From Deltaproteobacteria bacterium (GTDB lineage Bacteria; Lernaellota; Lernaellaia; JACKCT01): DNA of 33,995 nucleotides. The position numbers and the translations under genes were made by a program. The notes below the pieces were generated by a model. It did not search any database. It was not told the origin of the DNA and was given only the letters and a program-made list of their open reading frames with translations. Of this stretch, positions 139-15,592 are shown in pieces (within the stretch, counting starts at the first letter, position 1; each line of letters begins with the position of its first letter). Location: assembly GCA_020845895.1 (NCBI GenBank), contig JADLEX010000010.1:1-33995 (forward strand), in the 5' to 3' direction.

Positions 139-2760
139 TCAAAATCTCGCGGTCACAGTCGCCCGCGCGAAAAACGGCGTGCCCGCCGTGTAATGAATGC
201 CGTTCACCGTCTCGCCATTCGGCTCGGGGCGCGTCTCGTATGAAAACACCGCGTCTTCCCACTCGACGTCGAACACGTTGTCGATGGCCAGTTCCGCGCC
301 CCAGGTTTTCGCGTCGTAGCCGACGACCACGTCGGTCACGTAGTACGGGTCGGCGAAGTCGCCCTGATCCAGTTCGCGCTCGCCCATGTAGCGCCCCCGG
401 ATCATGCCCCGCCATCCGGCGAGATCCGACACGCCGATGCCGTTCGTCATCAGAAAGATCGGCCCGTTGGGAATGCGTTCGCCGGTGTCGGCGAAACGCG
501 CGTCCACATAGGCCGCGTCGGTCGCCAGATACAGCGGCTTCCAGGGCGACAGACGCACCTCGCCGTCCACGCCGCGCCGCTCGGTCTCGGCCTTGGTGGA
601 CGTGATCCCCGTTTGCGGATCGAAGACGAGATCGGTCTCCTTGTTTGCGAACCAACCCGATCCCGCGATGGTGAAGCGGTCGCCCCACGCCCACACGCGC
701 GAGCCGATCTCGCCGCCGCGCACCTTGGGGATGGTCGGCTCCGGGTCGTTCGCCATCTGCAAGCTGGTATTCGAGAAAAACCCCTCACCGTAGTTGACGT
801 AAATATTCCAGTCGGGCACCGGCGCGAAGATCGTCGAGATCTTCGGGCTCACGATCGAGGCGGTCTCGTTCCAGTCGCGCGGCACGTCCTGCCGGGTGTC
901 GGCCAGATTCGTGTAGATGTTGAAGAAGCGCTCGTCCTGCGTGCCGTCGCCCGCGTAGGCGATCGCGTCGAAGCGCGCGCCGGGCACCAGTGTCAGCCAA
1001 CGCGCGAGCCGCGCCTCTTCCTTCACCCACACGCCGATTTCGTTTTCCGTGAAACGCAGATCGTTGATGACGTTGAAACGCACGCGCTCCGTCGTGTTCG
1101 CGAGCACCTGATCCACATCGGCGAGCTTCCACTGCGCGCCCGCGCTCGAAATGAAACGCAGCGTCCCGGCCTTGTCCTCGCGCATGTAGCGCAGGTTCAT
1201 GCCGGCCGTGTCGCGGTTGTCGCGCATCTCCTGCTGATCCCCGAGAGTCGGGTTCAACAGATAGAACGTGTAGTTGGAGAAAATCGCGCTGCGCTTGTAG
1301 TCGAAATATCCCTGCGCGCGGATGCTCTGATTGCCCGCGTCGTGATCGAGTGTCGCGCTCACCAGATGCCGGTTGCTCGTCACGCGGTCCGACGCGTCCA
1401 TGCCGTCGAAGCGTCCGATGCGTCCGTCGTCCACCCACTTCGCGGGGATCACGTCGGCGGCCGCGCTGCGTTGGCCGTAATGCGCGCTCGTGAGATTGAG
1501 CGTGGTCGAACCCGGCAGCCAGGTGTGCGAACCGAAGCCGCGCGCCGCGTCGGCGAACCCGGGATCGGTGGTGCCCTCGGTGTGGTCGGTCTCGGCGGCG
1601 ATGTGCGCAATGTAGGGATCGGCCAATACGCCGCCGCCCGCATAGACACGCGCCGTACCGAACATCCCCGCCGTGGTTGAGATTTCGCGATGTTCGCTCG
1701 ATCGGCGCGGCACAAACACCACCGCGCCCGCCGTGGCGAAGTTGCCGAACTCGGGGTCGTAGGGGCCTTTGACGATGCGCATGGCGGCGACGGTCTCCGG
1801 AATCAGAAAGTGCAGATCGAGGTAGCCGTGGCCGTGCACCTGCGAGGATTCGTTCAGCGGTACGCCGTCGAAATACGCGGCGAGATCCTGCCCGTGCTCG
1901 GCGTCGAATCCGCGCAGGAAATATTGATACGCCTTCGCGCCGCCGGTGTGCTGCGACACGTGGATGCCGGGCACGAGACGCACCAGATCGCTTGGGTTCG
2001 CGTGGGGGAAGCTGCGGAAATCGCGGTCGCGCACGCTGTAGTCGCCCGCCGCGGACGTGGCGCGCCGCGCGCGGACCTCGACTTCTTCCAGCGCGCCGTC
2101 AGGCACGTCTGGTTCGGCCACGGCGTTTTCGGTCGCGGGTGGCGGCGTGCGGTCGCTGTCTTCGACCACCTCGCCCGCCACCACGCGTACACGGTGCTCG
2201 GGAAAGCCGTCGCGGTCACGGTCGTCGAGCACCGTGATCGACGAGCGCGACGCCTCGAAGTACGTCCAGCGGTCGAAGCGCCCGTCCAGATCCGTGTCCT
2301 GCTCGATCAGCGTCAGCGAACCCGCGTAGCCGTGATACGCCGCGTCGTAGAGCCCATCGTGGTTCGTGTCCACGCGCTGGCGGACGACGCTGCCGTCGCG
2401 GTATTCCTCGTCGGTATCCGCGCGCCCGTCGAAATCGCCGTCCATCTCGCCGCGAAACGGCTTGCCGGTCGCCGGTTCGACGTAGAGCCAGTAGTCGAGC
2501 CGCCCATCGCCGTTCAGGTCGCGCTCCTGCCGCGCGAGCCGCCCCGCCTCGTAGCGGTTCCAAAGATCGGGCACGCCATCCGCGTTCGAGTCTTCCTCGA
2601 CCGCGAGCAGCCGCCCCGCGCCGTCGAGTGTGACCTTCGCACCGGACGCGGGATTCGACGGATCGCCGACGAGTCCGGGCGCGACGCCGCCGTGGGCCAC
2701 GGACCAGCGGGGAATCACAAGGATCAGGAAACCCAGAAGCAGCGCCGATCGAATTCGCAT
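139..2760 (-). CDS. TonB-dependent outer-membrane receptor with N-terminal DxDxDG repeat array
   Basis: An 873-residue predicted outer-membrane receptor, energised by TonB, for uptake of an unidentified ligand (metal chelate, haem or other small molecule). The start at 2760 is chosen because it opens a signal peptide (MRIRSALLLGFLILVIP); an in-frame ATG at 2853 would add 31 residues before it. Residues about 57-188 hold six Asp-rich motifs spaced 24-26 residues apart (DSNADGVPD, DLNGDGRLD, DGDFDGRAD, DTNHDGLYD, DTDLDGRFD, DRDRDGFPE), which look like Ca-binding EF-hand or thrombospondin-3-like loops. The plug domain begins near residue 225 (LEEVEVRARR) and includes LRGFDAEHGQD and YFDGVPLNESSQVHGHGY. 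A beta-barrel follows and ends in an aromatic residue (TARF), as expected for BAM-dependent insertion. It is divergent from the Fur-family gene, with the dyad at 2902-2916 in the shared region, so metal or peroxide control is plausible but not shown. Receptor class is confident; ligand is unknown. Confidence 0.93.
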   Translation of the reverse strand: MRIRSALLLGFLILVIPRWSVAHGGVAPGLVGDPSNPASGAKVTLDGAGRLLAVEEDSNADGVPDLWNRYEAGRLARQERDLNGDGRLDYWLYVEPATGKPFRGEMDGDFDGRADTDEEYRDGSVVRQRVDTNHDGLYDAAYHGYAGSLTLIEQDTDLDGRFDRWTYFEASRSSITVLDDRDRDGFPEHRVRVVAGEVVEDSDRTPPPATENAVAEPDVPDGALEEVEVRARRATSAAGDYSVRDRDFRSFPHANPSDLVRLVPGIHVSQHTGGAKAYQYFLRGFDAEHGQDLAAYFDGVPLNESSQVHGHGYLDLHFLIPETVAAMRIVKGPYDPEFGNFATAGAVVFVPRRSSEHREISTTAGMFGTARVYAGGGVLADPYIAHIAAETDHTEGTTDPGFADAARGFGSHTWLPGSTTLNLTSAHYGQRSAAADVIPAKWVDDGRIGRFDGMDASDRVTSNRHLVSATLDHDAGNQSIRAQGYFDYKRSAIFSNYTFYLLNPTLGDQQEMRDNRDTAGMNLRYMREDKAGTLRFISSAGAQWKLADVDQVLANTTERVRFNVINDLRFTENEIGVWVKEEARLARWLTLVPGARFDAIAYAGDGTQDERFFNIYTNLADTRQDVPRDWNETASIVSPKISTIFAPVPDWNIYVNYGEGFFSNTSLQMANDPEPTIPKVRGGEIGSRVWAWGDRFTIAGSGWFANKETDLVFDPQTGITSTKAETERRGVDGEVRLSPWKPLYLATDAAYVDARFADTGERIPNGPIFLMTNGIGVSDLAGWRGMIRGRYMGERELDQGDFADPYYVTDVVVGYDAKTWGAELAIDNVFDVEWEDAVFSYETRPEPNGETVNGIHYTAGTPFFARATVTARF

Positions 2761-2884: not shown

Positions 2885-2916
2885 TTGACACGAATCTTAG
2901 ATTAGACTAAGTCTAA
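2885..2916 (+). promoter_or_regulatory. promoter and Fur/PerR-type operator of the regulator gene
   Basis: A perfect 7-1-7 dyad, TTAGACT-A-AGTCTAA, lies at 2902-2916 and ends 4 nt before the ATG at 2921. It fits the TTAnnnTnAnnnTAA frame of PerR boxes. A second overlapping dyad, CTTAG/CTAAG, spans 2896-2911. TTGACA at 2885-2890 is a good -35 element, which puts the -10 region inside the dyad. A bound repressor would therefore block its own gene, and perhaps the divergent receptor gene. A related copy precedes the catalase at 3342-3356. Confidence 0.75.
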
Positions 2917-2920
2917 AGCC

Positions 2921-3319
2921 ATGCACCGCGTGATCGAAGACCTGCGCGCCCACGGAATCGCGCCGACCCCGCAGCGGATCGCCGTCGCCGAGTTCGTGCT
3001 GCGCACGCACGAGCACCCGACGGCGGACACGGTGTGGGACCGCGTGCGTGAGCGCATGCCCACCGTTTCGCGGGCGACGGTCTACAACACGCTCAATCTT
3101 TTCGTCGAAAAGGGCCTGCTGCGAACGCAGGTGCTCAAAGAAGGCACGGTCGTCTTCGATCCGCACGTCGAGCGGCACCACCATTTCATAGACGAAAAGA
3201 CCGGAGAGATCGTGGACATTCCGTGGAACGCTTTGCGTGTCGCGGGGGCGAACGCGCTCGATGGTTTCGATGTCCACGAGTTTCAGGTCGTGCTCAGAGG
3301 CACGCGCCGCAAGCGTTAG
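2921..3319 (+). CDS. Fur-family metalloregulator, PerR-like, lacking the CxxC zinc motifs
   Basis: A 132-residue transcriptional repressor of the Fur/PerR/Zur family. The N-terminal winged helix has HEHPTADTVWDRVRERMP followed by the recognition helix VSRATVYNTLNLFVEKGLL. The dimerisation half keeps FDPH, HHHF and EIVD, which align with the PerR/Fur regulatory metal site (Asp/His ligands). Both structural-zinc CxxC pairs are missing: the first position reads DEKTGE and the C terminus (VLRGTRRKR) has no Cys. Fur proteins without structural zinc are known but less common. The dyad upstream of this gene and its copy upstream of the catalase support autoregulation and peroxide-response control, so PerR-like is favoured over Fur or Zur. 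The ATG at 2921 gives a normal family N terminus, but no clear Shine-Dalgarno fits between the operator and the ATG. Confidence 0.9.
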   Translation: MHRVIEDLRAHGIAPTPQRIAVAEFVLRTHEHPTADTVWDRVRERMPTVSRATVYNTLNLFVEKGLLRTQVLKEGTVVFDPHVERHHHFIDEKTGEIVDIPWNALRVAGANALDGFDVHEFQVVLRGTRRKR

Positions 3320-3341
3320 GGAGAGTTTTTTTCACCGGAAT

Positions 3342-3388
3342 CTGGACGAAGTCCAATGATGGACCTCGTATAACCCTTGGGGAAGGAG
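3342..3388 (+). promoter_or_regulatory. PerR-type operator, -10 element and ribosome site of the catalase gene
   Basis: CTGGACG-A-AGTCCAA at 3342-3356 matches the dyad upstream of the regulator at 11 of 15 positions, with the core GAC-AAGTC conserved. TATAAC at 3369-3374 is a likely -10, so the dyad covers the -35 region. AAGGAG at 3383-3388 is a strong ribosome-binding site 6 nt before the ATG at 3395 and rules out the TTG at 3377 as the start. Confidence 0.7.
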
Positions 3389-3394
3389 ATCGAT

Positions 3395-4834
3395 ATGAAA
3401 CCAAAGACGCTCACCACCGCGGCGGGGATTCCCGTCGCCGACAACCAGAACGCGCTGACGGCGGGCCCGCGCGGGCCGGTGCTGGCGCAGGACTGGCAAC
3501 TGTTCGAAAAGCACGCCCACTTCAACCGCGAGCGCATTCCCGAGCGCGTCGTGCATGCCAAGGGCTCGGGCGCGTACGGCACGCTGACCATCACGCACGA
3601 CGTGTCGCGCTACACCAGGGCGTCGTTGTTCGCCAAGGTCGGCAAGACCACACCGTGCTTTTTGCGTTTCTCGACCGTCGCCGGTGAAAAGGGCGCGGCC
3701 GACGCCGAGCGCGACGTGCGCGGCTTCGCGCTGAAGTTCTACACCGACGAGGGCAACTGGGATCTCGTCGGCAACAACACGCCCGTCTTCTTCATCCGCG
3801 ACCCCTACAAGTTCCCGGACTTCATCCACACGCAAAAGCGCGACCCGCGCTCGAACCTGCGCAGCGCCACGGCGATGTGGGATTTCTGGTCGCTCTCGCC
3901 CGAGAGTCTGCACCAGATCACGATCCTGTTTTCCGACCGCGGCCTGCCGCGCAGCTACCGCCACGTCAACGGCTACGGCAGCCACACCTACAGCTTCGTC
4001 AACGCGGCGGGCGAGCGGTTCTGGGTGAAGTTTCACTTCAAGACCGCGCAAAAGATCCAGTGCGTGACCGATGAGGAAGCCGAAAAGATGGTCGGCGCGA
4101 ACCGCGAGACGCACCAGCGCGACCTGTTCGAGTCGATCGAGCGCGGCGAGTTCCCGCGCTGGAACATGAAGATCCAGGTGATGACCGAGGTCGAGGCCGA
4201 GAAGACCTCGTACAACCCCTTCGATCTGACCAAGGTCTGGCCGCACGCCGAGTTTCCGCTGATCGACGTGGGCGTGCTCGAACTGAACCGCAACCCCGAG
4301 AACTACTTCGCCGAGGTCGAGCAGGCGGCGTTCTCGCCGGGCAACGTGGTGCCTGGCATCGGCCACAGCCCCGACAAAATGCTCCAGTTCCGCATCGTGT
4401 CCTATGCCGACGCGCACCGCTATCGCCTGGGCGTGAACCACGAGTCGCTGCCGGTCAACAAGCCGCAATGCCCCGTTCACAGCTATCACCGTGACGGCGC
4501 GATGCGTTTCGACGGCAACGGCGGCGGGTCGGTGAACTACGAGCCCAACAGCTTCGGCGGCCCGGCGCAGGACGCGGCTTTTCGCGAGCCGCCGCTGCCG
4601 ATCGCCGGCGACGCGGACCGCTACGACCACCGCGACGGCAACGACGATTTCACGCAGGCGGGAAACCTCTACCGGCTGATGCCGCAGGCCGAGCGCGACC
4701 GCCTGCACAGGGCCCTCGCCGGCGCCATGCGCGGCGTGCCCGAGGAGATCACCCTGCGCCAGCTCGCGCATTTCGAGAAAGCCGACCCGGCGTACGCCGC
4801 CGGCATCCGCGCCGCGCGCAAAGCCCTGGGCTGA
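3395..4834 (+). CDS. katA: monofunctional haem catalase (small-subunit type)
   Basis: A 479-residue haem catalase, converting hydrogen peroxide to water and oxygen in the cytoplasm. Catalytic His54 lies in [12 protein letters not shown] and distal Asn127 in LVGNNTP. The block [13 protein letters not shown] and the signature [12 protein letters not shown] are intact. The proximal haem ligand is Tyr337 in [14 protein letters not shown]. The length fits the small-subunit class; there is no C-terminal flavodoxin-like domain. It lies 75 nt downstream of the Fur/PerR-like gene and has a matching operator, so it is very likely induced by peroxide through that regulator. A strong terminator follows. 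A long antisense frame on the other strand is a codon-bias shadow. Confidence 0.97.
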
Positions 4835-4903: not shown

Positions 4904-4990
4904 AGCGAATCGCGAGGATGCGACCCCGACTGACGCATCGCGGGTGGAAATGTGGACGGGGCTGCGCCCTGGAGGATTTCCCTGTCGATG

Positions 4991-4999
4991 TGCTATAGA
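4991..4999 (+). promoter_or_regulatory. extended -10 promoter of the restriction-modification cassette
   Basis: TGCTATAGA is an extended -10 element (TGn followed by TATAGA). Its expected transcription start is at or next to the ATG at 5009, so the methylase mRNA would be leaderless or nearly so. No convincing -35 element or Shine-Dalgarno is visible. Confidence 0.5.
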
Positions 5000-5008
5000 A
5001 TCCCTAAC

Positions 5009-6178
5009 ATGGAATCCCCCGTCGCCATCAGACCGAATGGCCGCGCAAACGGTGCGGTCCAGCAACGTCAAGTGAGCGATCGAGACCCGAGGCCGGGCGC
5101 GTTTCGATTCATCGACCTCTTTGCGGGGATCGGCGGACTTCGAACCGGGTTCGAGGCCATCGGCGGTACATGCGTCTTCACGTCGGAGTGGAACGAGTAC
5201 AGTCGGCGAACCTACTTGGCCAATCACCGAGTGGATCATCCCATCGCGGGGGACTTAACGCGCATCCGGGAGAGTGAGATTCCCGATCACGACGTGTTGC
5301 TCGCGGGCTTTCCGTGCCAGCCGTTCTCGATCGCCGGGGTTTCCAAGAAAAATGCTCTGAAGAGACCGCACGGTTTTCAATGTGAGCTACAGGGGAATCT
5401 CTTCTTCGACGTTGCGAGGATTCTGGCTTTTCATCGACCGCGCGCCTTTCTCCTGGAGAACGTCAAGAATCTCGTCAGTCACGACGGCGGAAAAACGTTC
5501 CGCGTCATCCATCGGACGCTGACGGAGGATCTTGGGTACCGGATTCACTGGCGCGTCATCGACGCCAAGCCTTGGGTTCCGCAACACCGGGAACGGATCT
5601 TCATCGTGGGCTTTCGCGAGCCAAGCGACTTCTCATTGGACGATCTCCGCGCCCCGACCGCTTCGAGCGGACCGACGCTCTCCGCAGTCCTTCATCCGGA
5701 AGACGGAAGCGAAGTCGTCGAACCTCCGTACACCGTTGGACCTCGCGGTGCCGTCTCGCCGAAATACGGACTCAGCGAGCACCTGTGGAACTATCTTCGT
5801 GAATACGCCGAGAAGCATCGCGCGAAGGGCAACGGATTCGGATTCGGTCTCAACGGTCCGGGGGACGTCGCAAGGACTCTGTCCGCCCGATACTTCAAGG
5901 ATGGCTCGGAAATCCTGATACGGCGCGCGGGGAAGCAGACGCCGAGGCGACTTACGCCACGGGAGTGCGCCCGCCTGATGGGCTTCGACCGACCGGGGCG
6001 CGAACCGTTTGTCATTCCGGTGTCCGACACGCAGGCATATCGACAGTTCGGCAACGCCGTGGTCGTGCCCGTCGTGGAGGCCGTCGCAAGGTGCATGGCC
6101 CCGTATATCGGGGGTGAAGAGACGGTGTCGCCGCCGGTTCGGTCTCGACGGATACAACTGGGCTTGGGCATTGGCTGA
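5009..6178 (+). CDS. DNA (cytosine-5) methyltransferase, Dcm/M.EcoRII-like
   Basis: A 389-residue C5-cytosine methylase using S-adenosylmethionine. Motif I is [19 protein letters not shown] (about 34-52). Motif IV is [11 protein letters not shown] with catalytic Cys103. Motif VI is ENVKNL (150-155), motif VIII is [11 protein letters not shown] (192-202) and motif X is [12 protein letters not shown]. The stretches [41 protein letters not shown] and [15 protein letters not shown] closely recall Dcm and M.EcoRII, which methylate the inner C of CCWGG; that specificity is inferred. The start at 5009 is preferred over 4952 because the promoter lies between them. A GTG at 5072 is possible and would also keep every motif. 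The end overlaps vsr by 8 nt. It protects the host against the endonuclease two genes downstream. Confidence 0.95.
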
Positions 6179-6629
6179 CATTCTCGATCGTGCATCCAGA
6201 AGCCGTCTGATGTCGGGGATTCGTTCGAAAAATACCCGGATCGAGATCAGTCTCCGCCGGGGTCTGCACGCGCGGGGATTTCGGTATCGCCTCCATGACC
6301 CGAAGATCCCCGGCAGACCGGACCTCGCATTTCCGAAATACGGTGCGACGGTCTTCATCAACGGCTGCTTCTGGCACGGTCACGACTGCGAGTTGTACCG
6401 GCTCCCGAAAACCCGAACTGAATTCTGGCGAAAAAACATCGAAACGAATGTCCAACGGGACCATCGGGTAAAGACGGAATTGGCCAAGCTTGGATGGCGT
6501 CAATTCGTGATCTGGGAGTGCTCCATCCGCGGAACTGGTCGGAGGGATTTCGACGCCGTCATCGACAATGTCGCCGCGTGGTTGCGTTCCGTTCGCCACT
6601 TCGGGCAAATCCGGGGTCGCCGGACATGA
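6171..6629 (+). CDS. vsr: very-short-patch repair (T:G mismatch) endonuclease Vsr
   Basis: A 152-residue Vsr nuclease that nicks 5' of the T in T:G mismatches left by deamination of 5-methylcytosine. The TTG start at 6171 is chosen because it gives [22 protein letters not shown], the usual Vsr N terminus, and overlaps the methylase stop (6176-6178). With this start, residue numbers agree with E. coli Vsr as I recall it: catalytic Asp51 in GRPDLAF, His69 and Trp68 in CFWHGH, and zinc ligands Cys66, His71, Cys73 and Cys117 (IWEC). Position 64, His in the E. coli enzyme, is Asn here (FINGCFWH). It is translationally coupled on both sides, to the methylase and to the endonuclease (ATGA overlap). 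Confidence 0.94.
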
Positions 6630-7858
6630 CTGCCTCCCGCGAACTTCGAAGTTGGCTGGATGACATGTCAGGGATTCCGGCTGTATGGTTTTCGAAGCGC
6701 CTGTCCGCCAACGACACCAAGGCCTCGGGCGGCCATCAGGCGGGACCGTACCTCCCAAAGGACGTCTTCTTCCGCGTGTTTCCGGGTCTTCACCGCGAAA
6801 CGGACCTCAATCCGGAGACGTCGATCCGATTCGACATCGATTCCCATGCAGACACACGTCAAGTGAGAGCCATCTGGTACAATAACAAGTTCCACGGCGG
6901 GACGAGGGACGAAGCGCGGTTGACGCGCTTCGGGGGCGGCTCCTCAGCTCTGCTGGACCCCGACAACACGGGTGCGCTTGTTCTGTTCGCTTTCGTCGCC
7001 GCTGCCGACGGACAACACCTTCATTGCCGCGCATGGGTCTGCCGCTCAGCTGTCGAGGAAGAACACGCATCCGAAAGATTCGGCGTCGTGGACCCCGGAG
7101 AGTGGATATCGTGGACGACCGACGGAGTCTGGGCCGCACACGGTCTTCACACTCCCGGGACGGCCCGCGCAGACTGTCGCTTGACCCCGGCCGAGATTCC
7201 TCCCGAGTGGCTAAGAGGGTTTCCACGTGCGACGGAAATCGTTCGCCGGGCCGTCGAACTGCGCCCGTTACGTCATCTGGATGTTGACGCCCGGTTGCTG
7301 CGTCGCCGCGACTGTGAATTCGAGATTTTCCGCAGCCTGGAAGAAACCGTCGAGTTGCCCATCGTTCAGCGAGGGTTTCCGACACTCGATCAGTTCCTCG
7401 AACGCGCCCAGACGATCCTTCAACGTCGAAAGGCCCGATCGGGTCGGTCGCTGGAATTGCACGTGCGGGAAATCCTGATCGAGGAGGGCCTTCGGGAGCA
7501 CGAGGACTTTTCGTATCAACCCGAATCGGACCCAGGAAAACGGCCGGACTTCTTGTTTCCATCGGAGAGTTCTTACAAGAACGCGGCGTTTGACCCTCGC
7601 GCTCTGCGCATGCTGGCCGTGAAAACGACGTGCAAGGACCGTTGGCGCCAGATCATCAACGAGGCCGATAGGATTCCGCGAAAACACCTCCTGACCCTTC
7701 AGGAGGGCATTTCCGAAAACCAGTTTCGCGAAATCTCGGGTGCTGGTGTCACGCTGGTCGTTCCGACCGGTTTGGTCAAATCCTACCCGCCCGCGATCCG
7801 GGCGTCTCTCTTGCCTCTTTCCGCTTTCGTCGGCGAAGTTCGCCCTCCCTCGCGCTGA
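6626..7858 (+). CDS. type IIE restriction endonuclease, EcoRII-like
   Basis: A 410-residue restriction enzyme; from memory EcoRII has about 404 residues. The N-terminal effector DNA-binding domain (about 1-180) has KRLSANDT and GGHQAGPYLPK, then IWYNNKFHGGTRDEARLTRFGGGS and DPDNTGALVL. The C-terminal PD-(D/E)xK catalytic domain (about 270-410) has RRKARSGRSLELH (Glu277), KRPDFLFPS (Asp308) and LRMLAVKTTCKDRWRQI (Lys333), followed by TLQEGISENQFRE. Both domains recall EcoRII, which cuts before CCWGG and needs two sites. The ATG at 6626 overlaps the vsr stop by 4 nt. No frameshift is seen and the active-site residues are present, so the enzyme is probably functional. It completes a methylase-Vsr-endonuclease cassette. 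Confidence 0.94.
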   Translation: MTASRELRSWLDDMSGIPAVWFSKRLSANDTKASGGHQAGPYLPKDVFFRVFPGLHRETDLNPETSIRFDIDSHADTRQVRAIWYNNKFHGGTRDEARLTRFGGGSSALLDPDNTGALVLFAFVAAADGQHLHCRAWVCRSAVEEEHASERFGVVDPGEWISWTTDGVWAAHGLHTPGTARADCRLTPAEIPPEWLRGFPRATEIVRRAVELRPLRHLDVDARLLRRRDCEFEIFRSLEETVELPIVQRGFPTLDQFLERAQTILQRRKARSGRSLELHVREILIEEGLREHEDFSYQPESDPGKRPDFLFPSESSYKNAAFDPRALRMLAVKTTCKDRWRQIINEADRIPRKHLLTLQEGISENQFREISGAGVTLVVPTGLVKSYPPAIRASLLPLSAFVGEVRPPSR

Positions 7859-7985
7859 CGGGCATCCGATTCTTCCGCCGCGCACCTGGACACAGCCCGA
7901 AAACCCGTCCCGGTGACGCGCCTTTTCACCCCCGCCGCGCGGGAGTATGTTGTGTCCCCTCGTATCGAGGAAACTGGAGTGCGTC

Positions 7986-9545
7986 ATGATCCGTGAGGCG
8001 TGGGTGCGTTGGGCGGTGTTCGCCGTGGTTTCGATGATGGTGTTCGCGACCGGTTGCGGCTGCGGCGACGACGATGACGACCCTTCGACCGGCTCAGGGT
8101 CTGACGACGACGTTGCGGATGACGACGCAACCGACGACGACGCCGCGGACGACGATGCGACGGATGACGACGCCGGCGACGACGACACGTTTCCGCCGCT
8201 GCCGGACGACGACGATGACGCCGCCGACGACTGGGTCCCATCCGCCGTTTTGCCGATCGAGGTGCATCCGCTCCAGCGCGGGCTCGCCACGCTGCGCGGC
8301 CTGATCCACATGCACTCGGTCTATTCGCACGACGCGTGCGACGGCATGCCCTTCGTGGACGGCCACCCCAACTGGCCGTGCTTCAATCAGCTCCGCGTCG
8401 CGATCTGCACGACGAATCAGCAGTTCGTCTTCCTCACCGACCACAACGATCCCTTCGTCAATTACGAGTTCCCCGACGTGCTGCTCTACGTCGAGGAAGA
8501 GGGCGATGAACTCCTCTACGAGGACGGCGACCCCTTCGCCAACGTCATCACCTGCCCCGATGGCAACCAGGCTATTGTGACCGCGGGCAATGAGAACAGC
8601 CTGATGCCGCTCGGCCTGCGTCGCATGCCCGACGGCGATGCGAACGCGCGCAGCGCGATCCTCGACGGCGAAACCGTCGAAGCCATCAACGCAATGAAGG
8701 ACCTGGGCGCGATGGTCTTCGTGCCGCACTCCGAGGGCTGGACGACGGACCAGATCCTCGCGCTGCCGATCGACGGCCTCGAGGTCTACAACCTGCACGC
8801 GAACATCGACCCGAGTATTCGCGAGGACTATCTCGGCCTGCCCTCTCTGAGTTTCATCTTCGACATCCTGGACATGATCACGCCGCTCGACGAGGCCGCG
8901 CACGCCGACCTGTTCCTGCTCGCGTTCCTGAGCGAGAGCGCCCCCGCGCGCATGCACTGGGACAAGGTGCTCTTCGACCGCCGCACCGTCGCGAGCATTG
9001 CGACCGACGCGCACCGCAACGCGTTGCCGTTTCCGCTCCTGGACGGCGACCGCGCCGACAGTTACCGGCGCATGATGCGCTGGTTCGCCAACTACGTGCT
9101 CGTCGGCGAGCGCGACATCGAGACGATCGAGGAAGCCGTGCATCTGGGGCGCATGTACGGCGCGTTCCAGGTCTTTGGCGAGCCGGTGGGCTTCGACTTC
9201 CACGCCGAGGTCGGCGAGGAGATGTTCGAGATGGGCGACGAGGTTCCCGCGGGCGACAGCCCCATGCTCGTCGTGAAAGCGCCCACGATGATCAACATGC
9301 CGACCGACGCCGAGACGCCGGACATCACGATCAAACTGTGGCGCGCGAACGGCTCGGGGGGAGAATTGATCGAGTCTTCCGACACGGGCTCGATTGAAGT
9401 GCCCGCGGACGAGGCCGGCGCGTACTACGTCACGGCGACGATCGTGCCCAAACACCTCGCTCGGTGGCTGGGCGACGACGCCGACAAGTTCGTCCGCGAG
9501 TACCCGCTGATCTACGCAAACGCGATCTACCTGACGGCGGACTGA
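7986..9545 (+). CDS. PHP-domain phosphoesterase-like lipoprotein with Asp-rich linker
   Basis: A 519-residue predicted lipoprotein. The start at 7986 gives a hydrophobic signal ending at FATGC, with Cys24 the likely lipidated residue. Residues about 28-82 are an Asp-rich linker (DDDATDDDAADDD units, then DDDTFPPLPDDDDD). The folded part has PHP metal-binding motifs: LIHMHSVYSHDA (His108, His110), FLTDHND, GNEN, FVPHSEG and ATDAHRN. PHP domains hydrolyse phosphoesters with three metal ions. The cell-surface location implied by the lipobox is unusual for the polymerase/histidinol-phosphatase branches, but secreted PHP proteins exist. The substrate is unknown. The region after about residue 415 looks like a beta-sandwich. 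It is 30 nt upstream of another Asp-rich lipoprotein and probably co-transcribed with it. Confidence 0.85.
   Translation: MIREAWVRWAVFAVVSMMVFATGCGCGDDDDDPSTGSGSDDDVADDDATDDDAADDDATDDDAGDDDTFPPLPDDDDDAADDWVPSAVLPIEVHPLQRGLATLRGLIHMHSVYSHDACDGMPFVDGHPNWPCFNQLRVAICTTNQQFVFLTDHNDPFVNYEFPDVLLYVEEEGDELLYEDGDPFANVITCPDGNQAIVTAGNENSLMPLGLRRMPDGDANARSAILDGETVEAINAMKDLGAMVFVPHSEGWTTDQILALPIDGLEVYNLHANIDPSIREDYLGLPSLSFIFDILDMITPLDEAAHADLFLLAFLSESAPARMHWDKVLFDRRTVASIATDAHRNALPFPLLDGDRADSYRRMMRWFANYVLVGERDIETIEEAVHLGRMYGAFQVFGEPVGFDFHAEVGEEMFEMGDEVPAGDSPMLVVKAPTMINMPTDAETPDITIKLWRANGSGGELIESSDTGSIEVPADEAGAYYVTATIVPKHLARWLGDDADKFVREYPLIYANAIYLTAD
8067..8231 (+). repeat. GAY trinucleotide-rich tract encoding the Asp linker
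   Basis: A low-complexity run of GAC/GAT codons broken by single Ala, Thr or Gly codons. It encodes residues about 28-82 of the PHP lipoprotein. Similar tracts lie at 9696-9836 and, on the other strand, at 24404-24610. The shared DDDT(F/W)PPLPDDD segment ties this one to the next gene. Slippage here could change linker length. Confidence 0.8.
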
Positions 9546-9575: not shown

Positions 9576-11921
9576 ATGACGGCAACCCGAATCGTCCAGG
9601 TCGTCAGCGCATTGGTCTTCGTGTTCGCGTTCAGCGGATGCGTGGCGGACGATTCCGACGAGGACGACGCGGCGAGCCGGCCGATTCCGAACGGCGATGA
9701 TGACGATGCCCTCGCCGACGATGATGCCGACGACGACACGTGGCCGCCGCTGCCGGACGACGATTCGTTTTCAGACGACGACGCATCCGACGACGACGCG
9801 GATGACGATGCCGACGACGACTCGGGCGACGACGACACGCTCCCCCCGAACGAGCCGAACCCGAACGCCAAAGCCGACGCGTTCAAGCTGTTTTATCGCG
9901 AGCGCGTGTCGCGCATCGCGCTGGCCTTCAACCGCTTCGCGCTTTCGGGCGACGCCGTGTTCGGCGCGGCGATCGGCAAGAATTTCGTCGCGCGCTCGGG
10001 CAACGAATACGAGGTGGTGCCCGGCCCCAACGACAACAATCCCATCGGCATGTCCACATGGGGCGCGTGGAAGCTCTATCAGGCCATCGGCGGGCGCGAT
10101 CTGGAACTCACGCTCATTCGCATGTTCGAAGGGCTTGCGTTTTATGAAGCGGTGACGGGCCACCCGGGCCTGACGGTGCGCGAGGCGCTGCCCGGCTGGA
10201 CCCGCGTGATGGACGGCGTGGCGGATACCGTGACGCGCACGCGCGACGGCGCGCCCATCGGCCTGCCCGATCCCAACGCTCCGGCGCTGGAGCAGGAAAT
10301 CCTCGACACGTTTTACGACGGCATCGTCGTGACCTATCGCGAGGACCCGCTCGAGTATTACTTCAACTTCAAGCCGGTCAACGAGGTCACGGAGTTTTCG
10401 ATCACGATGGTGTTCGAGGAACTGCCAAACTACCTGCGCATCAGCAACTGCTGTTCGTCCTGGATGCACACGCAAAAGGGCGACTGGATCGGCGCGTGGT
10501 GGGGCAACCACAATTCGCGCGACAACATGACCGACTACGTGATGGGCTACATCGCCGCGTTCGAGGCCGAGGCCGTGCGCGGCTTGCCCGCCGACCTTGC
10601 CGCCGCCGCGACGAAGGCCGCGAACGCCGCGCGCCGCGTGGGCGACACGACCGTGGCAAACGGCAACATCCAGATGACGGTGGACGAGCGCTTCGATTAC
10701 GAAACGCTCAGCCCCGCGGGCGAGGTCGGCCCCGACGGCCTGTCGAGCTGGCAGGATCTGGGCAGCATCAGCTCGTGCCCGATGGCGTATCTGGCCAGAG
10801 CGATTTCGACGCCGGGGCTCTCGTCGCCCGTGCCGGCGGTGCCGCTGCCCGGGGCGATCGAGCGCGACTGGCTGATCGACCTGTTCCACCAAATCGGCAT
10901 CGATCTGCCGCTGCCGGTTTGGGATTGCCGTTCGGTGGACGACGCGTTCGTCGGCCTGACCTGGGGCGACATCCTCACCATCGAAATCTTCGGCACGCCG
11001 CTGCCCGATGTGCTGCGCAATCTCGCGGCGGTCTTTCCCGACCTCTTCCCTGATCTGTTCGGCGGCATGATGGATGACTTCAAGGAACTCGAACTCGGCG
11101 CCGTGGGCCTCGCCGAATACGCCCAGCTTCGCGGCGACGCCGGGCTGTACGACGACGCGCGCCAAACGCTGTGGCACCTCATCGAGATCCAGCGCCTGCT
11201 CGCCGAGATCGTGTACGGACTGGGCGCCGACGCCGCTTTCGCCGCGCGATACGACACCGCGCGCGGGCCGGGGTCGCTCATCGCCACGATCGAACAGGGC
11301 CGCGAGATGATGTACATCGCGGCCATGTACGCGCGCATGTTCGACCTGCCCGGGCCGCTCGCCGATTTCGACGGCTGGTATCGCGGCGAGCAGAAGTCCA
11401 CGTGGCTCGAGACGCCGCTCGCCTGGGGCGACACCGCGCCGTGGGGACTCATCACCGACGAGCAGATCGCCGCGAGCGTCGAGGCCGCGCTGCCCGGCGA
11501 GGAAGCGCCTGTCATCCAGCGCTACCGCGACCGGTTCGGATACACCCGACCCGTGCGCCGCGCAGGCGACGGATACGAGCGCATCGGGCCCGACGGCGAT
11601 TGGGGCCCGGCCGAAAATCCGCGCCACCAGTGGTACGGCGATTTCCACCTGTGGTTCGAGGCGGCCCTGTGCACGCACGCCCCCGCCACGCTCGATTGCT
11701 CATGGGCTCGCGTGGGGTGCGCGGTCGCCGATCTCGACGGCGATACGGACGTGGACGCGGACGACCGGCAGATGATGGTCGAGGAATGGGCCGTATGGGG
11801 AACGGGCGCGTCGTGCGACGCGGGTAACGACTGGTGCGACGGCATCGATCTGGACCGCGACGGGACATTCGAGATCGAGGACCGCGATTTCATGGACGCC
11901 GCGCAGGGGTGCGTGATCTAA
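9576..11921 (+). CDS. large Asp-rich lipoprotein, helical Trp-rich domain plus dockerin-like C terminus
   Basis: A 781-residue protein of unknown function. The signal peptide ends in FAFSGC (Cys22, lipobox). An Asp-rich linker covers about 41-87 and contains DDDTWPPLPDDDS, nearly identical to the upstream lipoprotein. The main region is rich in helices and aromatic residues (STWGAWKLYQAIGGRDLELTL, GAWWGNHNSRDNMTDYVMGY), like (alpha/alpha)-barrel carbohydrate or peptidoglycan enzymes. Similar segments (HTSRDQYSGWWWGM) occur in the protein at 24404-25972. The last about 65 residues hold two Asp-rich loops, DLDGDTDVDADDRQMM and DLDRDGTFEIEDRDFM, in a dockerin-like pair. GGGAGG precedes the ATG at a good distance. 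The catalytic role, if any, cannot be assigned; a surface-anchored glycan- or protein-binding part is the best guess. Confidence 0.8.
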   Translation: MTATRIVQVVSALVFVFAFSGCVADDSDEDDAASRPIPNGDDDDALADDDADDDTWPPLPDDDSFSDDDASDDDADDDADDDSGDDDTLPPNEPNPNAKADAFKLFYRERVSRIALAFNRFALSGDAVFGAAIGKNFVARSGNEYEVVPGPNDNNPIGMSTWGAWKLYQAIGGRDLELTLIRMFEGLAFYEAVTGHPGLTVREALPGWTRVMDGVADTVTRTRDGAPIGLPDPNAPALEQEILDTFYDGIVVTYREDPLEYYFNFKPVNEVTEFSITMVFEELPNYLRISNCCSSWMHTQKGDWIGAWWGNHNSRDNMTDYVMGYIAAFEAEAVRGLPADLAAAATKAANAARRVGDTTVANGNIQMTVDERFDYETLSPAGEVGPDGLSSWQDLGSISSCPMAYLARAISTPGLSSPVPAVPLPGAIERDWLIDLFHQIGIDLPLPVWDCRSVDDAFVGLTWGDILTIEIFGTPLPDVLRNLAAVFPDLFPDLFGGMMDDFKELELGAVGLAEYAQLRGDAGLYDDARQTLWHLIEIQRLLAEIVYGLGADAAFAARYDTARGPGSLIATIEQGREMMYIAAMYARMFDLPGPLADFDGWYRGEQKSTWLETPLAWGDTAPWGLITDEQIAASVEAALPGEEAPVIQRYRDRFGYTRPVRRAGDGYERIGPDGDWGPAENPRHQWYGDFHLWFEAALCTHAPATLDCSWARVGCAVADLDGDTDVDADDRQMMVEEWAVWGTGASCDAGNDWCDGIDLDRDGTFEIEDRDFMDAAQGCVI
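9696..9836 (+). repeat. GAY trinucleotide-rich tract encoding the Asp linker
   Basis: GAC/GAT-dominated low-complexity sequence encoding residues about 41-87 of the large lipoprotein, with ADDD and SDDD units. It is the second of three such tracts in the window. Confidence 0.75.
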
Positions 11922-12309: not shown

Positions 12310-12778
12310 ATGTCGCGTCATCGCTGGCGGATTCGGCTGCATGCAGGGGTTCGTGGGGTGAACACAGATTTTGCCGATGCGGCGGGTCGACACTGGACCG
12401 ACGCCGAGACGCTCTTCGACGCGAAACGCTGGCCCAACGCCGATCAGCTCTACGGGTTCGCCGCCGAATGCACATTGAAGGCGATCATGGTCGGGCTCGG
12501 AATGAGTGTTGTAGCTGACCGACCTCAGTATCCAAGTCATCGAGTGCACATCGACAAGCTCTGGAATGAGTTCCGTACATTCGCAGCCGGGCAAGTCGAA
12601 TGGTGCCCGATACGCCGCGATGCTTCCCTCGGATAATCCCTTCAACGACTGGCTCGCAAGCCAGCGTTACTGGCATTCGCGCCATGTCGGTCAGCCAACC
12701 GCGATCGCTCATCGACAAGCGGCACGCGATATTCGGTCGATTTTCGACCAAGCGACAGTGGACGGGACAGAGCCATGA
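12310..12778 (+). pseudogene. HEPN-like domain protein, frameshifted in this sequence
   Basis: Two overlapping frames encode one protein. The first (12310-12636) has HWTDAETLFDAKRWPNADQL followed by YGFAAECTLKAIM, the pattern of HEPN helices. The second (to TGA at 12776-12778) continues as NGARYAAMLPSDNPFNDWLA and QRYWHSRH. Crossing over near 12585-12600 (removing one base around CAAGTCG) gives a continuous protein of about 155 residues. The second frame is supported because its stop overlaps the ATG of the next gene at 12775 (ATGA). HEPN proteins are often RNases or toxins; RYWHSRH could be an R-x5-H type motif but this is not certain. The indel may be a sequencing error, real decay or a programmed shift; I cannot tell which. 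It is the first gene of a three-gene operon. Confidence 0.65.
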
Positions 12779-14112
12779 ACATGCCCCCCATGACATTCGA
12801 CGCGATTCCCGACAGCCTGCGCGCTCTGGTATCGGAGCACCGGGATCGGCTCGGCGATCTTGAATGGATCGCCGCGATTCGCGATCTCTGGAGCCGAGTG
12901 CGGTTCGTCGTCCCGAAGCGGCCTGACGAGGATAGCGATCTCGGCCGGGCGCTGACCGCGTTTGCGGAAGAAGCGTCGCAACGCCTCGACCGACATGGCT
13001 ATCCAACCGGTCAGGCCATCCTCTACGCCGATGAAATGGCAATCGATTTCAATCCCGAGCAATTTCCCGGCATCACTCTCGATTGGGATGAACCAAGATT
13101 ATTCCTGATCGACCGGCAAGTCTCCGGGCTTTCCTGGGGAACCGTGAATCGAGATCCCGACGATACGTCGCCTGATTTTGTGCCGCCTCGTCGAATCGCG
13201 TTCTATTCCATCAAGGGCGGCGTCGGGCGTTCGACCTCGGCTGCTGTCGCCGCGTGGCATCTGGCGCGTGAAGGAAAGAACGTACTCGTCGTTGATCTCG
13301 ACCTCGAAGCGCCGGGCCTTTCGTCGAGCCTCTTTCCCCCGGCAAATCAACCTCCTTTTGGGATCGTCGACTGGTTTGTCGAGGACGCCGTAGGCCAAGG
13401 CGACACAGTATTGCCTGATATCTCCGCGAGGTCGCCACTCGCAACCAACCTGCCGGGATACATCCGGGTCGTGCCTTGTCATGGAGCGAACCCCACACAG
13501 TACCTCCCTAAACTCGGGCGCTGCTATCTCGACCTGCAGCGGGACGGAAAGCTCGAATCTTGGGAGCGGCGGTTGGGTCGTTTTATCGAAGCTCTCGAAG
13601 CCGTGCACAAACCCGATCTCGTGCTGCTGGACGCTCGCGCCGGGCTCTCGGACTTGGCTTCCGCGGTCGTAACGGACCTTCAGGCAGAGGTCTTCCTCTT
13701 CGCGATCGGAACGACGCAGACCTGGTCAGCCTATCGTCTGCTGTTTGAAGAGTGGCGAGGGACTCGCGCGATTCTCGACCTGCGTGAGCAGCTTCATCTC
13801 GTGGCGGCACTCGTTCCGGAAACGGATCGAGAATCCTATCTCACGCAGTTCCGACAAGAGGCGTGGGATCTCTTTCGCGATCATGCGTATGACAACGTTG
13901 AGCCAGACGCTCCTGCCGATGCAGACCTTTTCACCTTCGATCTCGATGCGGTAGACGGTCCGCATTCACCAATCCCCGTGTATTGGAACCGAGGTATCGC
14001 CGCACTGAGCAACCTCTCTGAGTTGGATCCGCAGCTAGTTGCCGCGTCGTACTCAACGTTTCTCAGCAGTCTGGATCGTTGCGTCGAGGCGATGCTCGGG
14101 GCGAGCAAATGA
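12775..14112 (+). CDS. ParA/MinD-like ATPase with KGGVGR variant Walker A
   Basis: A 445-residue protein. An N-terminal region of about 140 residues with no recognised motif (helical, then YADEMAIDFNPEQFPG) precedes a SIMIBI-type P-loop domain. The deviant Walker A is SIKGGVGRSTSA (Lys147 to about Ser153), where the usual KGGxGKS lysine is replaced by Arg. VLVVDLDLEAPGL supplies the Walker A' Asp, and DLVLLDARAGLSDL the Walker B-like strand. The Arg variant keeps the first (signature) Lys, so ATP binding is possible but hydrolysis may differ from ParA. It is flanked by 4-nt overlaps with the HEPN gene and with the next NTPase gene, so the three products are probably made in proportion. There is no parB-like gene or parS-like repeat, which argues against plasmid partition. 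Confidence 0.88.
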   Translation: MNMPPMTFDAIPDSLRALVSEHRDRLGDLEWIAAIRDLWSRVRFVVPKRPDEDSDLGRALTAFAEEASQRLDRHGYPTGQAILYADEMAIDFNPEQFPGITLDWDEPRLFLIDRQVSGLSWGTVNRDPDDTSPDFVPPRRIAFYSIKGGVGRSTSAAVAAWHLAREGKNVLVVDLDLEAPGLSSSLFPPANQPPFGIVDWFVEDAVGQGDTVLPDISARSPLATNLPGYIRVVPCHGANPTQYLPKLGRCYLDLQRDGKLESWERRLGRFIEALEAVHKPDLVLLDARAGLSDLASAVVTDLQAEVFLFAIGTTQTWSAYRLLFEEWRGTRAILDLREQLHLVAALVPETDRESYLTQFRQEAWDLFRDHAYDNVEPDAPADADLFTFDLDAVDGPHSPIPVYWNRGIAALSNLSELDPQLVAASYSTFLSSLDRCVEAMLGASK

Positions 14113-15592
14113 CGCCCTTTCAAGTTGACCCGAAGAGCGCCCGTCAGTCGATTCTGGAAACGATCCCTGACAGCACTTCACTTCATGGAAGACCGCCCGA
14201 GGTGCGTTTCAGCTACGTACCCGCATCCCACGCCAAGGCGCTCGACTTGGATACGCAGGTCGTCGTCGGCATGCGCGGCACTGGCAAAAGCTTCTGGCGG
14301 CGCTTCAGAGCGCCGAGCATCGATCTCTGCTCGCTCAGCGTTCCAGCCAACTGGGCATCGTGGAAAATGCCTCCATCGCCGCGGGGTTTGGCGAGGAACC
14401 GCAGCCCGATTGGTATCCGCAACGCGACGTGCTCCGTCAACTTCTCGATTCGAAATTCGAACCGCGACTCATCTGGCGCACGGTCATTCTACAAGCTCTG
14501 GCCGGGGGCGATCCGCAAGTGGTCGGCAGCGGACGGAGTTGGGCGGATCGAGTGACTCATGTGAAGCAGCAGCCCGAATGGATTGAGCGGTTTCTTTACG
14601 ATAGGGATCGCACGTTCGAGAGCGAAGGAAAGTCATGGGTTATCCTTTTCGATGCTTTGGATCGCACCGCCTCGGACTGGCCGACCATGAACGAGCTGGT
14701 TCGCGGGTTGCTTCAGGCGGTGCTCGACCTGAGGCCGTACCGTCGCCTACGAGCCAAGTGCTTCCTTCGCACCGACCAACTCAACGAGAGCGAAGTCGCA
14801 ACATTTCCAGATGCGTCCAAGCTCATGGCCGAAAAGGCTGAGCTCGACTGGCCTGCTAACGAACTTTACGGGCTGCTTTTTCAGTACATGGGAAATGCGC
14901 GCGATGGGGCCTTTCGTAAGGCGATCGAAAGCGAGTCTTGGTTTAAGTGGCCTCAGATCGAGGGAACGGACGAATCCGTCGCGTGGTTGCCGCCAAGCAG
15001 TCTCCGTCACGATGCAGAGCTTCAGCGCAGAGTGGTTCACACGATTACCGGCCCTTGGATGGGGCGAGACCGCCGTCGGGGTGATCCCTACACCTGGATT
15101 CCCAACCATCTGGCCGATTCGCAGGGCAAGACCAGTCCCCGATCCTTCTTGGCCGCACTGCGGCATGCTGCCGATGAAACGTCGAAACAATACCCGGAGC
15201 ACGAATACGCCCTCCACTATGAGAGCATCAAACGCGGCGTCCAGAAGGCGAGTGAGATTCGGGTTAGAGAGTTGCGCGAGGACTACCCATGGGTTGACAC
15301 GTTGATGAAACCCCTGAGGGGAAAGGTGGTTCCCTGCGATTTCGCCGAAATCGAGTCGGTTTGGGACGAAGTTCTCATGGAACTTCGGAGTCGAGTAGAG
15401 CAGCAGGTCGAGCGCCTTCCGCCCGCCCAACTCGCCGCAGGTGCCGAGGGCGTGCGCCGCGATCTCGAGAATTTGGGAATTTTTTTCAGAATCAAGGACG
15501 GCCGCGTGAATGTCCCGGATGTGTACCGACTTAGCTACAATATTGGGCGCAAGGGTGGCGTTCCGCCGGTGCGTCGAGCGAGTGCCGGCTGA
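14109..15592 (+). pseudogene. P-loop NTPase (STAND/KAP-like), frameshifted after Walker A
   Basis: A protein of about 494 residues read from two frames. From the ATG at 14109 (ATGA overlap with the previous gene) the frame runs through VVVGMRGTGKSFW, a Walker A with Lys60. It then derails into Arg-rich sequence. The frame that runs to 15592 reads, from 14297, AALQSAEHRSLLAQRSSQLG and continues with Walker B SWVILFDALDRTA and KCFLRTDQLNESE. Adding one G after the TGG at 14295-14297, or a -1 slip there, joins them smoothly. The FLRTD segment followed by ELDWPANELYGLLF resembles KAP/STAND-type ATPases. The C-terminal half has no recognised domain. It may sense or power the system; its effector is unknown. 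Confidence 0.7.

Follow-up and report, generated by a model that had tools for sequence, protein, structure and literature searches.

Six DxDxDG loops ahead of the plug domain in a TonB-dependent receptor of a Lernaellota genome

The window analyzed here, a stretch of 33,995 nucleotides (contig JADLEX010000010.1 of assembly GCA_020845895.1, deposited as Deltaproteobacteria bacterium), encodes on its minus strand a TonB-dependent receptor that carries a regular array of six acidic DxDxDG loops in front of its plug domain. The array is a real, conserved feature, and the receptor represents a new domain arrangement built from known parts. The protein comprises 873 aa if translated from the ATG at 2760, and 904 aa if translated from an alternative in-frame GTG at 2853; it is classed as a TonB-dependent receptor by its plug and barrel domains, both of which exceed the curated Pfam cut-offs (Table 1). 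Our preferred explanation, to which we assign a probability of about one half, is that it would be a nickel receptor with a calcium-stabilized periplasmic repeat domain.

Strict D.[DN].DG motifs start at residues 57, 81, 107, 131, 155, and 180 and occur nowhere else in the receptor, the loop-to-loop spacings being 24, 26, 24, 24, and 25 residues. The initial annotation of this DNA had described six such repeats before the plug at intervals of 24–26 residues, and both the number and the spacing are borne out: in shuffled residues 30–215 we observe a mean of 0.065 motifs and a maximum of two, and six motifs were reached in none of 20,000 shuffles. All six loops conform to the Dx[DN]xDG calcium motif, including the acidic residue expected further on (D or E, at loop position 9), and the array has a net charge of –15 to –22, no Cys, and hardly any His. 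Dx[DN]xDG is described as a calcium motif, and such loop chemistry as favoring Ca2+ (PMC3123361, in excerpt).

A search of 60 genomes, the window genome (G000) included, identified full-length orthologues in two other genomes, G004 (L004) and G003 (L005), with identity of 58–60% and both with the array, an array receptor being present in three of the seven listed genomes of the window's class; in G001 and G002, which belong to the same family as the window genome, this search found no array-receptor orthologue. In the three orthologues the loop ligand positions (D1, x3, D5, G6, D9) are invariant in 21 of 30 cases, compared to 20 of 103 other array sites (Fisher p 4.6e-7). The mean pairwise identity of the three proteins is 44% in the array, 79% in the plug, and 63% in the barrel, so that the array evolves faster than the receptor, the loop ligands being nonetheless held. 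In a tree of 85 receptors, built by a quick method, the three array receptors group together as a single clade (support 99), with L032 and L033 (99), which have the lipoprotein described below and no array, as the sister group. A single gain of the array in the window's class best explains this distribution. Non-conservation in orthologues, which would have spoken against the initial annotation, is not seen: the array is kept in all three genomes that have the receptor, but the wider receptor family is without it.

A Pfam scan of the receptor gives nothing significant N-terminal to the plug. The TonB-box-like LEEVEV comes after the array, which places the latter N-terminal to the putative TonB box, in the slot used by the signaling domain of FecA; this agrees with the regular acidic array that the initial annotation had put in the N-terminal slot. 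Residues E226, V227, and V229 of LEEVEV are invariant in the three orthologues, the assignment as a TonB box being by motif only. A22-H23-G24-G25 is likewise invariant across the three array orthologues, and signal-peptide cleavage before H23 would give a mature N-terminus His-Gly-Gly.

The repeat unit itself is already known and widespread in bacteria, and what looks new is its fusion to a TonB receptor. The repeat is not unique: a profile built from the three arrays has matches in 56 of 386 genomes, mostly in stand-alone proteins. L129 (832 aa) and L128 (390 aa), examined over their whole length, consist purely of 24-residue units, and in L030, L165, and L163 the repeat is fused, as seen by eye, to zinc-ribbon, membrane, or thioredoxin-like parts. 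L129 and L130 are probably secreted stand-alone proteins consisting nearly entirely of the 24-residue repeat. Among 58 array-bearing frames in the fetched loci (duplicates included), plug and barrel accompany the array only in G000, G003, and G004, and the fusion has so far been observed in three genomes of one class only. No frame in the loci of 80 named relatives, a few of which end at contig ends, has a spaced array. Culturable hosts of the family, for example Nitrospira moscoviensis and Hymenobacter, have receptors without it. In a second phylum (195 genomes, 130 of them with the receptor family) none of the matches listed extends N-terminal of query residue 147, nor does the array profile give a match in any of 38 loci inspected (L206–L208 repeating L171–L173). 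Scanning of viral contigs and plasmids revealed no array relatives. A literature search, covering its sources in part, turned up no TonB receptor with such repeats, and neither it nor Pfam gave a described receptor class with this layout, as the initial annotation had supposed.

The Lsa25.6 family (NCBIfam NF050087) shares this unit of 24 residues, in which D-x-N-x-D-G precedes an aromatic/Gly half. Its model matches the stand-alone arrays with E-values down to 9.8e-40, yet below the curated 150-bit cut-off in every case, and the receptor with E 6.6e-4 and 19.3 bits, short of membership; Lsa25.6, a leptospiral adhesin by name, has no plug or barrel, unlike the receptor. The stand-alone array L129 passes the cut-off of the Pfam family FG-GAP_3 (33.0 vs 26.9 bits), and stand-alone arrays have sub-threshold Pfam matches to DUF6802, MORN_2, and RHS. 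The RHS and MORN_2 matches hint at a beta-strand repeat; the receptor's own array has no Pfam match to FG-GAP, RHS, or MORN_2. Lanmodulin and EF-hand proteins are matched weakly through the DxDxDG loops (6mi5, E 0.0013). Loop position 12 is N, L, E, Y, T, and V in loops 1–6, that is, acidic in one of six, and Pfam finds no EF-hand in the receptor. A lanmodulin-like, lanthanide-binding reading was set aside, as the match rests on the spacing of Asp and Gly in the loops and position 12 misfits. The CarboxypepD_reg-like extension of Bacteroidota receptors occupies the same slot as the array and has no Pfam match in the window receptor; a stretch of the relative L055 resembles this extension by eye.

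The cargo of the receptor is likely, though not certainly, nickel, as judged from gene context and conserved residues. NikR is encoded within the fetched locus of 14 of the 80 named relatives (eight Nitrospirota, two Acidobacteriota, one Rokubacteria, two Bacteroidota, and one other), and among 57 immediate upstream genes sampled, five encode NikR and eight a urea transporter. Behind the G004 receptor come the lipoprotein, CbiM, CbiQ, and CbiO, and in the array-less sister G388 the receptor–lipoprotein pair is divergent from NikR, CbiM, CbiQ, and CbiO. CbiM and NikR are found once each in G000, G003, and G004, and neither is found in G001 or G002. The linkage to nickel genes or NikR is seen in the family and the sisters (CbiMQO in G004), not in the window's own neighborhood. 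Moreover, NikR-box-like sites (GTRNYAC-N13-GTRNYAC, with no more than one mismatch) lie ahead of the receptor in G003, G004, G388, G389, and L032, the p-values for G003, G004, and L105 being optimistic, as the motif had been partly spotted there by eye before testing; a regular-expression search gives eight such sites against a background mean of 1.04 and maximum of 4. Near-invariant plug histidines (Table 1) would fit a metal cargo. TonB receptors for nickel that are linked to NikR are known, namely FrpB4, FecA3, and NikH (PMC11247825, PMC7689651, in excerpt); the association with nickel genes is shared with our receptor, the likeness being drawn from descriptions that, in the excerpts, mention no array.

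A His-rich lipoprotein is encoded behind the receptor in G003, G004, L032, and L033, and a distant form of it behind the receptor of G034. It has no Pfam or NCBIfam match, and structure prediction for the L032/L033 lipoprotein gave an unusable model, with a predicted local distance difference test score (pLDDT) of 32. The copy in the window genome, 55–58% identical, starts close to the end of contig C50 (approximately 240 bases away) and is oriented as it should be if this end joins the window start, and we infer that the lipoprotein follows the window receptor via this join. Transposase-like coding at the window start, noted by eye, may explain the contig break. As the sisters L032 and L033 have the lipoprotein and no array, the receptor–lipoprotein link is probably older than the array. 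Among the 85 receptors, barrel His662 is missing in all six that are partnered by the lipoprotein and present in the other 79; in newly fetched loci it is missing in seven of seven partnered receptors (two of these repeat L032 and L033) and present in 24 of 28 unpartnered ones, the four exceptions being divergent receptors. In G394 (L191:1279-3078) receptor and lipoprotein are in one reading frame, possibly by fusion or an assembly fault. Small His-rich proteins directly before the receptors in L037, L046, L050, L074, L075, and L097 are possible metal-handling partners.

In a nickel receptor with a calcium-stabilized repeat domain, the array loops would bind Ca2+ in the periplasm, stiffening the repeat into a defined domain; this domain may serve as a calcium-dependent spacer or as a module onto which the partner lipoprotein, TonB, or the envelope docks, and the cargo, presumably nickel, would be bound by plug and barrel histidines, not by the array. 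The initial annotation had suggested that the array binds Ca or the metal cargo, or senses it; binding of the cargo is less likely than Ca2+ binding, because the loop chemistry favors Ca2+, not the nickel or cobalt of the gene context. Several observations weigh against this explanation. The fold of the array and its calcium binding are putative, and structure prediction of the array alone gave an unusable model (pLDDT 35). Neither orthologue has six intact loops (one is degenerate in each, loop 5 in G004 and loop 1 in G003), and the array is less conserved than the plug and barrel. G005 and G006 have NikR and CbiM and no close receptor, in G000 and G003 CbiM does not adjoin the receptor, the neighbors of the window receptor are a PerR-like and a catalase-like gene, and the promoter of the window receptor shows NikR-box-like similarity at chance level only. 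The array clade lacks His662 and has Gln307/His311 where most relatives have His307/Gln311, which suggests that the metal site has been reworked in the array branch and leaves nickel uncertain, as the cargo may differ.

The absence of His662 and the adjoining catalase-like and PerR-like genes would also suit a cargo other than nickel, such as cobalt, zinc, copper, haem/iron, or pyrroloquinoline quinone (PQQ), an option that we consider rather unlikely. The nearest solved structures by sequence, YncD/PqqU (PQQ), PhuR, FecA, and BtuB, point the same way, as do NCBIfam haem and B12 matches of the receptor, weak and far below the cut-off; it is opposed by the proximity of NikR and CbiMQO to sister and orthologous receptors, by the NikR-box-like sites that precede the receptor in G003 and G004, and by the near-invariance of the plug histidines. 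It is improbable that the array buffers or relays the imported metal, binding it at the exit from the barrel and passing it to the lipoprotein. The array would lie on the periplasmic side, just ahead of the plug, and has six sites, and a His-rich lipoprotein partner exists, but loops rich in carboxylates, almost without His and lacking Cys, suit Ca2+ or lanthanides rather than Ni2+ or Co2+, and the array is absent from the sister receptors that share this lipoprotein.

Transducers of the FecA/FpvA type have an extra periplasmic domain ahead of the TonB box (PMC11658791, in excerpt), and the window receptor resembles them in having an additional domain in this place, which is a repeat array and not a compact signaling fold. 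That the array is an analogue of the FecA N-terminal domain, reporting cargo or calcium to an inner-membrane partner, seems quite improbable, given that Pfam detects no STN domain in the receptor up to E 1, that FecR-like matches in G000, G003, and G004 are located only on contigs other than the receptor's, and that no regulator is common to the neighborhoods of the three receptors. We are equally doubtful of a calcium-controlled gate or sensor that would fold only with Ca2+ and couple nickel import to outside calcium via the TonB box, which would constitute a new class of N-terminal control domains. A neutral, dispensable decoration gained by domain shuffling would agree with the presence of the array in three of seven genomes of the class, its absence from the wider family, and its conservation below that of the barrel, but the ligand positions have been selectively kept while most other array positions changed, and we regard this as very improbable.

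Table 1. Receptor and neighboring features in the window (residues are those of the 873-aa receptor).
Feature	Coordinates	Strand	Evidence or remark
TonB-dependent receptor gene, 873 aa	139..2760	-	Pfam Plug E 2.4e-13; TonB_dep_Rec_b-barrel E 5.6e-23
Predicted signal peptide, residues 1-22	2695..2760	-	read from sequence
Six-loop DxDxDG array, residues 57-188	2197..2592	-	motif count and conservation
Loop 1 DSNADGVPD, residues 57-65	2566..2592	-	strict motif
Loop 2 DLNGDGRLD, residues 81-89	2494..2520	-	strict motif
Loop 3 DGDFDGRAD, residues 107-115	2416..2442	-	strict motif
Loop 4 DTNHDGLYD, residues 131-139	2344..2370	-	strict motif
Loop 5 DTDLDGRFD, residues 155-163	2272..2298	-	strict motif
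Loop 6 DRDRDGFPE, residues 180-188	2197..2223	-	strict motif
Putative TonB box LEEVEV, residues 224-229	2074..2091	-	position and motif
Plug domain, residues 242-346	1723..2037	-	Pfam, above curated cut-off
Plug stretch with family-wide histidines, residues 271-317	1810..1950	-	His271 in 84, His289 in 84, His309 in 85, and (His317) in 74 of 85 receptors
Beta-barrel match, residues 425-829	274..1488	-	Pfam, above curated cut-off
Perfect palindrome TTAGACTAAGTCTAA	2902..2916	+	4 bases before ATG of Fur-family gene; 1 match vs 0.04 expected
Divergent Fur-family regulator (PerR/Irr-like)	2921..3319	+	neighbor, not conserved beside orthologues

The region 2902-4834 of the window, comprising the palindrome, the Fur/PerR-like gene, and then the catalase-like gene, is a possible peroxide-response operon. 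Control of the receptor by the neighboring Fur-like gene was considered and rejected: since the palindrome is 4 bases from the start of the Fur-like gene and approximately 140 bases from the receptor, self-control on the Fur/catalase side is the better reading. Neither the Fur-like nor the catalase-like gene is located beside the receptor in G003 or G004. Further along the window, an EcoRII-type restriction-modification cluster (4952-7858, plus strand) comprises a C5 cytosine methylase, a Vsr endonuclease, and EcoRII, and a ParA-like ATPase gene followed by a gene with no Pfam match (12775-15592, plus strand) may form a two-gene system. Lipoprotein-like products with long poly-Asp tracts directly after the lipobox cysteine are encoded at 7947-9545 and 9576-11921, and also elsewhere in this genome at L121:11957-12832.

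If the window receptor is indeed a nickel receptor with a calcium-stabilized repeat domain, the array would join the STN and carboxypeptidase-like domains as a third kind of module at the N-terminus of TonB receptors. Moreover, a receptor with predictable cargo would provide a setting for testing the role of a widespread repeat with no assigned function. What also emerges is a subfamily of nickel-linked receptors that are partnered by a His-rich lipoprotein and show a corresponding barrel change, the absence of His662.
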